Notes under the pieces: generated by a model
What the model was told of the DNA's origin: nothing
The model's database searches: none
The model's input: the letters and a program-made list of their open reading frames with translations, nothing else
Shown: positions 2,646 through 5,899 of the stretch, piece after piece
Position numbering within the stretch: position 1 is the stretch's first letter
Layout: every line of letters begins with the position of its first letter
From: Bacteroidota bacterium
GTDB lineage: Bacteria; Bacteroidota; Ignavibacteria; Ignavibacteriales; SURF-24
Length of the DNA: 43,301 nucleotides
Direction of reading: 5' to 3'
Assembly: GCA_030706145.1 (NCBI GenBank)
Contig: JAUZPB010000026.1
Span: 1-43,301, forward strand
Program-made: the position numbers and the translations under genes

Positions 2646-3809
2646 ATGACCTCTAGAACCATATCAGATGAACTGTCTGAATATTTGAATGCATTACTAC
2701 AGTTTAACCCAGTATTCTTTTCTGTAGTTTTTGTGGCTGTTGTCATCTTGGTAATCCATGTAATCAACCAAAGAGTTATTATTCCTTCAAAGATAAAATA
2801 TATGGAGGATAAGAAAAAGCTTGAAAATGAGAACCTTAGACTTATGGCTTTGTTTGCTGAACTTGATCCTGACCCTGTCTTAAGAGTAAATAGCGATGGA
2901 GTAATTATTCACTATAATAAGTCTGCTGAAAATCTTCTGGACCCTGTCGTTTTAAGAACTGCCCATGTTTCAGATGTAATTCCAGGAATAACAAGTGTCT
3001 CAGAGGCTATAAAGAATGACTTATCTTCGACTTTCTTTTTGAAAATAAAGGACCACGACTATTCGACTCTCTTTAGAGGAATTGCGGACCTGGGATTTGC
3101 ACAAATCTATTTCCGTGATATTACTGAAAGAAAAAACTATGAAAGAAAGTTGAAACAATTCTCCAGAGATCTTCAGGATTCACTTGAAGAAGAAAGAAAA
3201 AGAATAGCCTTTGAATTGCACGATGGAATAGGCCAGAATTTGTCTCTGGTAAAACTTAAGATCCAAAGACTTTCATCATTGCCTGACTGCCCGGAGCGTT
3301 ATGCAGAATATACTTGTATAAATGATATTATTGTAAAAACAATTAAAGATATAAAAGATATTTCTTATAATCTGAAGCCAAGAATTCTTGATGAATTAGG
3401 ACTTGAGCCAGCTCTTATTTCTTTGTGTAATTCAGTAGCGAAAGAAACTTCTATGAAGCCGCAGATAAAACTTGATAATTTGTCAAAAAGATTAAACAGT
3501 AAACAGGAGCTATGCCTGTACCGAATTGCTCAGGAAGCTTTAAGCAATATTGCTAAACATTCCTTTGCCAGCGAATTTAATATGATGCTCCTTAATAATG
3601 GAGACAGTGTTAAGCTTTTGATATCAGATGACGGTAAAGGATTTGATTATGAAGTTATCAGTAAAAAAAGAAATGACCAGAAGAGTCTTGGAATGATTTC
3701 TATGGTGGAAAGAGCTGAAAGCCTATATGGAAAACTTTCTGTCGTATCTTATCCAAATGAAGGTACCGTTATTCTAGCTGAAATCCCCGTTGATGAATCT
3801 CATACATAG
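2646..3809 (+). CDS. membrane-bound sensor histidine kinase (PAS, NarL/DesK type)
   Basis: A 387-residue sensor kinase. One transmembrane helix lies at about residues 22-42, followed by a short linker coil, a PAS-like sensory domain (about 65-160) and a HisKA_3 dimerisation domain with phospho-acceptor H192 in ELHDGIGQNLS. The C-terminal HATPase_c domain has its G1 box at DDGKGFDYEV and a closing LGMISMVERAESLYG segment. HisKA_3 kinases normally partner a LuxR/NarL-type response regulator, but none is adjacent, so it is an orphan here. The ATG is preceded by GTAGG. It converges on the TIR gene with only 13 bp between the stops. The signal sensed cannot be inferred. Confidence 0.92.
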   Translation: MTSRTISDELSEYLNALLQFNPVFFSVVFVAVVILVIHVINQRVIIPSKIKYMEDKKKLENENLRLMALFAELDPDPVLRVNSDGVIIHYNKSAENLLDPVVLRTAHVSDVIPGITSVSEAIKNDLSSTFFLKIKDHDYSTLFRGIADLGFAQIYFRDITERKNYERKLKQFSRDLQDSLEEERKRIAFELHDGIGQNLSLVKLKIQRLSSLPDCPERYAEYTCINDIIVKTIKDIKDISYNLKPRILDELGLEPALISLCNSVAKETSMKPQIKLDNLSKRLNSKQELCLYRIAQEALSNIAKHSFASEFNMMLLNNGDSVKLLISDDGKGFDYEVISKKRNDQKSLGMISMVERAESLYGKLSVVSYPNEGTVILAEIPVDESHT

Positions 3810-3822
3810 ATGACCTTTTTTT

Positions 3823-4200
3823 TTATAGAGTGTCAATAAACTCTGCAATATCGCATAATCTCCAGTTTATTATTTTTATGTCCCCAAGCTCTGGCGGAAT
3901 ATTTTCTGGCTCATCTTTATGTATGCGAACACCTATTATGGGCTTGTTACTCTTTTTTGCACAGTCTATTTCCCACTTTGCTCCGGTAGCAGCATCGGTA
4001 TTATTGCTAATTAGTGCAATTACACCTTTGCACTGATTTATCCGGTCACTGCATTCAGCTCTCCACTTCTCATCCCATGGCTTTTTGTTAGACATGTCTA
4101 AAAACTTGAAATGAATTTTTGTATTTAAGTCCTGTTTTTTGATAAATTCACTATATACTATATCTCTGTTTGCATAACTAATATAGATTTTCATTATCAT
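3823..4200 (-). CDS. ThsB-like TIR-domain protein (MTH538/DUF1863 type)
   Basis: A compact 125-residue single-domain protein. It shows the first strand KIYISYANRD, the conserved KKPWDEKWRAEC segment, the helix DRINQCKGVIALISNNT, and KWEIDCAKKSNKPIIGVRI, with the likely catalytic glutamate at E77. This is the pattern of the MTH538-type TIR family that includes ThsB of Thoeris, whose members cleave NAD+ to make cyclic ADP-ribose-type signals on phage infection. It is the last gene of a three-gene minus-strand operon, 16 bp after a SLOG-domain gene. SLOG is the domain that senses such signals in ThsA. A second in-frame ATG at 4194 gives a more typical N-terminus (MKIYIS). Enzyme activity is inferred, not shown. 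Confidence 0.85.
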   Translation of the reverse strand: MIMKIYISYANRDIVYSEFIKKQDLNTKIHFKFLDMSNKKPWDEKWRAECSDRINQCKGVIALISNNTDAATGAKWEIDCAKKSNKPIIGVRIHKDEPENIPPELGDIKIINWRLCDIAEFIDTL

Positions 4201-4216
4201 TAATTCTTTTTGTGGT

Positions 4217-4702
4217 TTATACTATTTCTGCTTTTCTACACTCCGGACTAATATTAATAACTGTTTTTCCTAACAGGTGTGCATAAGAAATTACTTTATT
4301 TGCCATATCTTCCGATTCCTTTTGACCATTATCATTTACTGAAAGTATAATTTGTGAACTCCTGACCATAAATTTTCCCATTTCTAGCATTGATTGTTCT
4401 TCAATATCGTTTGAATGCGGAAGCTTAATTATATCTTTTGACTGCATCAGCAAGGCAAAGAATGATGCACGGAATGATGGGTCTTTAAAAGTATTGTGGT
4501 AATTATCAGCCGGGATTACAACCGTAAAAGGAATTCCTAATTCTGAAAGCACAGATGCAAATAGCTGGTCTGGGCCAGGGGATAAAGATGTAAAACCTTC
4601 AGTTATATGATATTGCAAAATGGCTTTGTGAAAACTATCTTTAAGCCAGCTTTTGTCTTCATTGTTCTCAAAATTTGTATCTGCTGTGATTCCCGCAATC
4701 AT
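4217..4702 (-). CDS. stand-alone SLOG-family nucleotide-binding protein
   Basis: A 161-residue Rossmann-like protein with no second domain. Features: GIT near the N-terminus, then GFTSLSPGPDQLFASVLSELG (residues 36-56), the strand VVIPADNY (61-68), the MLEMGKFMVRSSQIILSVND segment (105-124), and a closing YAHLLGKTVINISP. This matches the SLOG (Smf/DprA-LOG) superfamily, which binds nucleotides or NAD-derived ligands. The usual GG-T/S motif before the last helix is replaced by NGQKESEDM, so the pocket is altered or degenerate. An AGGAG ribosome-binding site lies 6-7 bases before the ATG. It is 16 bp upstream of the TIR gene. Unlike ThsA, no SIR2, macro or transmembrane effector is fused to it, so the output of any signal is unknown. 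Confidence 0.72.
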   Translation of the reverse strand: MIAGITADTNFENNEDKSWLKDSFHKAILQYHITEGFTSLSPGPDQLFASVLSELGIPFTVVIPADNYHNTFKDPSFRASFFALLMQSKDIIKLPHSNDIEEQSMLEMGKFMVRSSQIILSVNDNGQKESEDMANKVISYAHLLGKTVINISPECRKAEIV

Positions 4703-4728
4703 TGTATACTCCTAAATATACTTTTATA

Positions 4729-4944
4729 TTATCTTCGTCCTAAAGTTTTCAGGCCCGTTCTGAAAATTAACAGTGCTCCGGAGGCAAAAATAAAGTGAGG
4801 GGTAGTAGTTTCACCTCCGGGAACACCTATGGGGAGTAAATGTAGTTGGTTATAATATATCTCTTCTTTGGAAAATTTTTCTTTTCCCTTCGTGGTTACC
4901 TGTCTGGCATATGAGTGGACTGCTGATGCAGAAATTTGTTTCAT
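4729..4944 (-). CDS. small unknown protein heading the TIR/SLOG operon
   Basis: A 71-residue protein I cannot assign to a family. The first 38 residues are hydrophilic and basic. They are followed by GVPGGETTTP, a short hydrophobic stretch (FIFASGALLIF) and a basic tail (RTGLKTLGRR). That last part resembles a short membrane anchor or sorting tail, but the hydrophobic run is only 11 residues, marginal for a full transmembrane helix, and there is no N-terminal signal peptide. No ribosome-binding site is obvious. It ends 26 bp before the SLOG gene, same strand, so it is probably cotranscribed. It could be the missing effector, an accessory peptide or a non-gene. Confidence 0.45.
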   Translation of the reverse strand: MKQISASAVHSYARQVTTKGKEKFSKEEIYYNQLHLLPIGVPGGETTTPHFIFASGALLIFRTGLKTLGRR

Positions 4945-5320
4945 AAAAGTATTATGATATTAATTCTTTTATATTGAAAATCCTTTTGATGCAGATCAAA
5001 CTTATTATCTTTTCCAATTATTGTAAATACGTATTAATACCTGTTTTTGGGGAAAAATTTGGGCAAAAACCAGGTATTAATACCTGGTTTTTGGGCAAAA
5101 AATGGCAAAAAAATGGCCTAAAACCAGGTATTAATACGGGTATGTTTTCTGCGTTTTTAGCTCAAAATCGCAATAAATGGGCATAATTTGAAGAAAATTT
5201 TCAGGATCGTAATTATTTTTTTAAAAAATGAACAATATTTTCTGAAGAATTCAGCAATATTATGAATATATTTGTCAGGCCTAAAACAATATTTACTATT
5301 ACAGCATTGGCGAGTAATTT
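4945..5320. other. 376-bp divergent intergenic region
   Basis: This gap holds the triple palindrome and presumably divergent promoters for the TIR/SLOG operon and the membrane-protein gene. A 70-codon frame across it (4974-5186) exists only because the palindromic repeat lacks stops in that phase; I do not count it as a gene. The right part (5190-5320) is AT-rich with nothing recognisable. Confidence 0.6.
5031..5137. repeat. triple palindromic repeat upstream of the TIR/SLOG operon
   Basis: Three copies of the palindrome GTATTAATAC occur at 5031-5040, 5074-5083 and 5128-5137. The middle copy is the centre of a perfect 30-bp palindrome (5064-5093) with CAGG/CCTG and A5/T5 extensions. The outer copies keep the extension only on the side facing the middle one. 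The right arm of copy 1 can therefore pair with the left arm of copy 2, and the right arm of copy 2 with the left arm of copy 3, giving mutually exclusive hairpins or a cruciform. It lies between the operon start (4944) and the divergent membrane-protein gene (5321). It may be an operator array, a repeat element or an extrusion site. Confidence 0.85.
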
Positions 5321-5899
5321 ATGCTGATTGCAAGAATAATTGTATATTTAAGTGCTCTATTATGGCTGGCCGTTCCAATTAGACAGTGGAAAGAAAAATA
5401 CTTTCTTTATTTTTTTATTCTTTCTTTGACTGATCCTTTGGTCATGCTCTTAAGAATATATTTCTCTTCTGTCTATCCTTTCCAGATCTATATGATTTCT
5501 ACTATGCTGCTTGTTGTTTCATTACTTAATATTAATTCAAAAAAATTATTTCTATGGGGAGGAGCTATTCTAACAGGGACCGCACTGGCCGTGTTTGTCA
5601 ATGTTTTTAAACTGGCTATCCCTTTAACTATAGTCCATACTCTTATACTTTTAATTCTGGTAAGAAAAGTTACAATTAGAATAATTGAAAATTCAGGCAT
5701 AAAGATCTTCCATTGCCTGTTCCTTATGTACCAGATGACATTAACTTTGAAGTTTTTTATGGTAATTACAAATACCAGAACGGGTGTATTGTATTTTTAT
5801 GTGACATCTTTCTTCGAGATCTTAATTGCTCTTTACTTTAGCCTTTCTAAAGAAGGTTCGTCAAGAATAATCTTAAGATTCGAGCAAAATCTGGCGTGA
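5321..5899 (+). CDS. polytopic inner-membrane protein of unknown function
   Basis: A 192-residue, highly hydrophobic protein with about seven predicted membrane segments (roughly residues 1-20, 26-48, 54-70, 75-95, 98-115, 127-148, 155-173), short loops and a charged C-terminus (SKEGSSRIILRFEQNLA). I do not recognise the family. The layout resembles the membrane sensory half of some histidine kinases, but no kinase domain follows. A GGCGAG sequence lies upstream of the ATG. It is divergent from the TIR/SLOG operon and shares the palindromic intergenic region with it, so a link to that system is possible but unproven. A bidirectional terminator follows. Confidence 0.7.
   Translation: MLIARIIVYLSALLWLAVPIRQWKEKYFLYFFILSLTDPLVMLLRIYFSSVYPFQIYMISTMLLVVSLLNINSKKLFLWGGAILTGTALAVFVNVFKLAIPLTIVHTLILLILVRKVTIRIIENSGIKIFHCLFLMYQMTLTLKFFMVITNTRTGVLYFYVTSFFEILIALYFSLSKEGSSRIILRFEQNLA

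Follow-up and report, generated by a model that had tools for sequence, protein, structure and literature searches.

Three phased palindromes next to a TIR/SLOG gene pair form a probable operator array of a lineage-specific NarL/LuxR-type signalling module

In a window of 43,301 nucleotides (the whole stretch of DNA that was analysed, from an Ignavibacteriales genome), three palindromes were found which very probably serve as DNA operators for dimers of a NarL/LuxR-type response regulator family, judging by the comparisons presented below. The regulator belongs to a signalling module that is conserved in the order. This odd palindrome exposes a module with two proteins that fall into no Pfam or NCBIfam family, and a locus where a TIR/SLOG gene pair lies inside such a module. 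It also exposes a lineage code, in which three recognition-helix residues go with three outer operator bases. The novelty is in the lineage-specific module and the readable helix-operator code, the mechanism itself being of a known kind.

Results

Sequence and geometry of the array

The sequence GTATTAATAC is present at 5031-5040, 5074-5083 and 5128-5137 and nowhere else in the 43.3-kb window, where it is expected 0.04 times; three copies were reached in 0 of 100 shuffles. The second copy is at the centre of a perfect 30-bp palindrome, CAAAAACCAGGTATTAATACCTGGTTTTTG, at 5064-5093. Both the triple repeat and the palindrome had been reported in an initial annotation of this DNA, and both were confirmed. 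The features of the locus are as follows.

2646..3809, + strand: orphan HisKA_3-type histidine kinase of the module, 39-40% identical to module kinases
3823..4200, - strand: TIR-domain gene, ThsB-like, standing where the response regulator gene would be
4217..4702, - strand: SLOG-like gene paired with the TIR gene (label from the initial annotation; no Pfam or PADLOC match)
5028..5043, no strand: putative operator copy 1, TACGTAT-TA-ATACCTG, a hybrid of TAC and CAG half-sites; its equivalent in the C137 array is TACGTATTAGTACGTA
5064..5093, no strand: perfect 30-bp palindrome around copy 2
5071..5086, no strand: putative operator copy 2, CAGGTAT-TA-ATACCTG, core perfectly symmetric; identical sites on C137
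5125..5140, no strand: putative operator copy 3, CAGGTAT-TA-ATACGGG
5141..5186, no strand: companion element TATGTTTTCTGCGTTTTTAGCTCAAAATCGCAATAAATGGGCAT, partly conserved beside the C137 array and inverted between sites on C75
5321..5899, + strand: seven-helix membrane protein of the module, 192 aa, the nearest gene downstream of the array

Copy 2 has the full arrangement of two inverted heptamers with a 2-bp spacer, giving a 16-bp symmetric core. Copies 1 and 3 are symmetric over 10 bp and have hybrid ends, with TAC on the left and CTG on the right of copy 1, and CAG on the left and GGG on the right of copy 3. The outer copies had been described as carrying arms only on the side facing the middle one; however, their outer sides are not bare, and copy 1 (TAC-GTATTAATAC-CTG), with its outer side, is one half of another version of the site, TACGTATTARTACGTA, which is found in full in the paralogous array on contig C137. 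Inverted-repeat pairs were detected at 5031-5048/5066-5083 and 5030-5051/5117-5138.

The array is 184 bp from the start codon of the membrane-protein gene and 329 bp from that of the SLOG gene. The former distance exceeds that of several relatives, in which the nearest site is roughly 30-90 bp from the start. A sigma-70 promoter scan gave scores at shuffle level. The companion element (ATGCCCATTTATTgcgATTttgaGCTaAAAACGCA in one orientation) was seen beside all three arrays of the genome (window 5141-5186, L019 about 4718-4739, L101 3397-3434), and it is possibly a site for another DNA-binding protein.

A conserved module and its incomplete copy in the window

The module consists of a histidine kinase, a NarL/LuxR-type response regulator, a small exported protein ending in CPPxC and a seven-helix membrane protein. 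In the relative G001, the order is kinase, regulator, palindrome, a 143-aa exported protein ending in NCPPICF and a 192-aa membrane protein, and a single palindrome, AAATACGTATTAATACGTATT, lies exactly between the response regulator gene and the next operon. The full set (CPPxC protein, membrane protein, kinase and regulator) is also present on contig C75 of the same genome as the window. Of the 164 genomes of the order, 97 encode the CPPxC exported protein, and the family of the seven-helix membrane protein is essentially confined to this order.

Neither the CPPxC protein nor the membrane protein matched a Pfam or NCBIfam family. AlphaFold2 models of both were confident (pLDDT 92 for the membrane protein and 92 for the globular CPPxC protein), and a PDB fold search with these models returned nothing significant, the best matches being GPCR-like seven-helix bundles and sliding-clamp domains (E 0.13 and 0.005). 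The module was absent from the literature searched. In the CPPxC protein (L103:6780-7211, L101:7232-7699 and relatives) the C-terminal CPPxC is invariant, and the seven-helix membrane protein is usually encoded after it. One CPPxC protein (L131:408-1220) is made of two tandem domain repeats, the first of which also ends in CPPYC, and in some genomes (G036, G055 and G011; L118, L107 and L120) at least three membrane-protein genes of the module family follow one another in tandem.

The window membrane protein is 30-34% identical to module members; compared with the G001 proteins specifically, the window kinase is 40% and the window membrane protein 34% identical. Regulator and CPPxC genes are missing from this copy, and no remnants of either were found by tblastn between the window kinase and the array; the gap holds the TIR/SLOG pair on the other strand. 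From its gene content, the window can be read as a second, incomplete copy of the module, comprising kinase, operators and membrane protein. The array, between kinase and membrane protein, thus stands where it does in the relatives, with TIR/SLOG as an accessory. The two-gene pair at 3823-4702 (TIR, ThsB-like, and SLOG) as a whole matches no PADLOC system, and could be a stand-alone defence pair.

Arrays elsewhere in the same genome

The GTATTAATAC 10-mer occurs 18 times in the 5.34-Mb genome, against 13 times for a reversed control. Six of these copies are in arrays, and the other 12 are single and at chance level. Arrays were found at three loci only, namely the window, C137:4556-4704 and C75:3378-3524. 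The C137 array has three sites with spacings of 42 and 85 bp and matches the window with a blastn E of 7e-12. The C75 array, also of three sites (spacings 93 and 32 bp), is directly upstream of a 76-aa gene, the kinase and the regulator. A sequence model of the nine sites, run on the genome that holds the sites it was trained on, found no fourth cluster. The homology between the window and C137 extends past the repeat ends on both sides, rightward side included, which points to related promoter regions and not to a repeat insertion. An exact 18-mer also matched two Bacillota records in GTDB contigs, and this was taken as chance.

Sites across the order

When TACGTATWARTACGTA was searched across the order with one mismatch allowed, 12 exact sites were found outside the genome of the window, and for nine of these a CPPxC gene was no more than 3 kb away. 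The general form of the site is NNN-GTA-N4-TAC-N'N'N', and it occurs at two positions of the module, upstream of the kinase and in the gap that separates the regulator from the CPPxC gene. With a site filter that made no demand of inner symmetry, and thus included TACGTATAAGTACGTA, sites were present in 17 of 62 regions upstream of module kinase or CPPxC genes, whereas 200 shuffles gave 0.1 on average and never more than 2; the control, 96 kb of module coding DNA, contained one site. In the other 45 of the 62 regions the strict pattern gave no site, which means that the operators have diverged there or that some modules do without them. The outer triplet is mostly constant within a genome and different between genomes, as in TACGTACTTGTACGTA (G442), TTAGTACTTGTACTAA (G460) and TCAGTATTTATACTGA (G003). 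In G465 (TCCGTAGAACTACGGA) the outer triplet is the same at both positions.

Helical phasing

The sites in the window are 43 and 54 bp apart, about four and five helical turns. The spacings between neighbours are, in bp, 43, 54 (window); 42, 85; 93, 32; 147, 10, 10; 32, 31; 31, 132, 31, 31; 105; 104; 149; 206, 92, 33; and 31, 33, 31. These 24 values gather around multiples of 10.5 bp (R 0.68, phase -0.01 turns, p about 1e-5), and the phasing was still seen with the 15 distinct spacings above 10 bp (p 0.013). The exceptions are two out-of-phase spacings, 132 and 206. Such a pattern would be expected from dimers on one face of the DNA.

Co-variation of the recognition helix and the operator

In the regulator's recognition helix, the three residues that precede the arginine were compared with the outer triplet of the operator. 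Helices with D[YF]Y-R (DYY or DFY) go with TTA operators in 8 of 8 genomes, and DTH-R helices go with TAC in all five that have a detected site, two more DTH loci showing none. The other pairings are DSH with TAC, ETH with TCA or TCC, and DAH with TAG. In the genome of the window itself, the DGH helix of the C75 regulator goes with the CAG operator. Helix and operator switch together within genera g4, g6 (G442 versus five others) and g10. When operators were permuted among genomes, the observed concordance was reached in 0 of 20,000 permutations, and in 1 of 20,000 after dereplication by genus and helix, for a table that was assembled by hand and in which related genomes are not independent. 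The operator class is thus linked to a receiver-GerE regulator which is encoded on C75 and in relatives, is absent from the window, and whose helix co-varies with the triplet. With such a code, regulons would be predictable from sequence.

Discussion

The initial annotation had offered an operator array for a dimeric regulator as one of three readings of the palindromes, and the phasing, the placement beside module genes and the co-variation with the recognition helix strongly support it. The NarL DNA-binding domain binds as a dimer to inverted heptamers 2 bp apart (PMC4549865), and as the geometry of the sites is the same, dimer binding by the module regulator can be proposed. In this model, the module kinase family would phosphorylate the regulator, and a phosphorylated regulator dimer would sit on each palindrome (7-bp half-site, 2-bp spacer, 7-bp half-site). 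Spacings of 43 and 54 bp, about four and five turns, would place the three dimers on one face of the DNA, so that cooperative binding is possible. The dimers may then activate or repress the membrane-protein gene at 5321 through its promoter, and with arrays of two or three sites the module would switch its own genes cooperatively and so regulate itself.

As the response regulator gene is absent from the window, the binder would act in trans. The likely one in this genome is the regulator on contig C75 (1221-1904), which has sites of its own next to it. Sites are found upstream of kinase and regulator on C75 and in relatives, which is the placement of autoregulation, and since the C75 kinase-regulator operon has three sites of the same sequence as the window, its autoregulation is probable.

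The similarities to the NarL 7-2-7 operators of E. coli (PMC4549865) are the 16-bp palindrome of two inverted heptamers with a 2-bp spacer, and the TAC/GTA ends of many relatives' sites, as in the engineered NarL site TACCCCTAAAGGGGTA. As in the NarL system, the module regulator has the receiver-GerE architecture and its partner is a HisKA_3 kinase. However, the inner bases are GTAT/ATAC here and CCCT/AGGG in NarL sites, the outer triplet varies between genera, the sites occur in helically phased arrays of two to three, and no nitrate link is known for the module. The half-sites TACGTAT and CAGGTAT agree with the NarL half-site TACCCCT in TAC and the last T only. Therefore, these are not NarL sites proper but operators of the wider family.

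Short-spaced operator arrays act cooperatively on one DNA face, and the spacings here are likewise at multiples of the helical repeat. Autoregulated two-component systems may include an auxiliary membrane or exported protein. The module resembles them in that kinase and regulator are clustered with extra proteins and operators lie upstream of the system's own genes, and differs in its CPPxC and seven-helix proteins, for which Pfam and NCBIfam hold no family and solved folds gave no significant match.

The array could instead be the control region of TIR/SLOG, with a leftward promoter through which the regulator would turn this putative immune pair on or off. To the left, the SLOG start codon (4702, - strand) is reached after 329 bp that hold no other clear gene, and on C137 a leftward lipoprotein gene likewise has the array slightly more than 220 bp upstream of it, so control of TIR/SLOG by the array is possible. 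As the main role of the array it is, however, doubtful. A search for the SLOG protein in the 163 other genomes of the order returned one weak match only, whereas the operators and the module are widespread; the rightward sides of the window and C137 arrays are homologous too; and the relatives' operator is just upstream of the CPPxC-membrane protein genes. The emphasis first placed on the TIR/SLOG promoter looks misplaced, as the array belongs to the kinase/membrane-protein module around it. It is also nearer the membrane-protein start (184 versus 329 bp). The membrane-protein gene is thus the closer, syntenic candidate for control by the window array.

A bolder proposal, to which we give little credence, is that the module is an undescribed envelope or cell-cell signalling system of the order, and that the window is a rewired copy in which the immune-like TIR/SLOG pair was captured between kinase and operators and brought under module control. 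In such a system, the CPPxC protein would be the signal or signal carrier and the seven-helix protein a receptor partner, working with the kinase and regulator.

The sites might also be operators for a different dimeric regulator encoded outside the module, as the genome has other NarL-type regulators (17 GerE matches). This is unlikely, since site and recognition helix change together for the regulator that the module itself encodes, within genera too, and sites are placed beside the regulator gene on C75.

An RNA switch, in which alternative transcript hairpins sharing the middle copy control the downstream gene, had also been suggested, and folding of both strands did give structures far better than shuffles (z -7.4 and -7.9). 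However, any set of identical palindromes folds well, so that palindromy explains the strength of the folds. The hairpins proposed for either neighbouring pair were not recovered in the window, where the best RNA fold pairs copy 1 with copy 3 around a copy-2 hairpin; on C137, copies 2 and 3 pair. Related arrays do not conserve the arms that join one copy to the next, single sites exist in relatives (G001), an Rfam scan gave chance-level matches only, far below gathering scores, and no terminator was found. Such a switch would also leave the helical phasing and the helix co-variation unexplained, and is very improbable. A mobile palindromic repeat of the REP or MITE kind, suggested by 22-nt terminal inverted repeats (91% complementary) and the second related array on C137, is contradicted, because arrays are found at three loci in 5.3 Mb and not at dozens of unrelated intergenic sites, the 10-mer is at background elsewhere, the two closest copies share both flanks with no sharp end of homology at the repeat ends, and module genes of many genera have sites upstream.

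Returning to the putative operators of the module regulator, further sites were observed at other genes. On contig C102 of the window's genome (L102:5003-5192, G000), overlapping TACGTATNNNTACGTA sites 10 bp apart and TCAGTATTTATACTGA lie upstream of a 1200-aa subtilase with a secretion-tail domain; this array consists of overlapping TACGTA sites and is separate from the three GTATTAATAC arrays, and the subtilase gene could be a further target, either of this regulator or of a sister. In G001, contig C6 carries three further operator copies (L103:8089, 11136 and 17301) near MauE-like and beta-propeller lipoprotein genes; for two of the copies the leader DNA is nearly identical, which suggests a local regulon with duplicated promoters. 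Upstream of an outer-membrane-protein-like gene on contig C24 of G048 (L104:1693-1765) there is a triple CAGTATTAATACTG array with spacings of 32 and 31 bp, and as this array is away from the module, the regulon may reach other genes.
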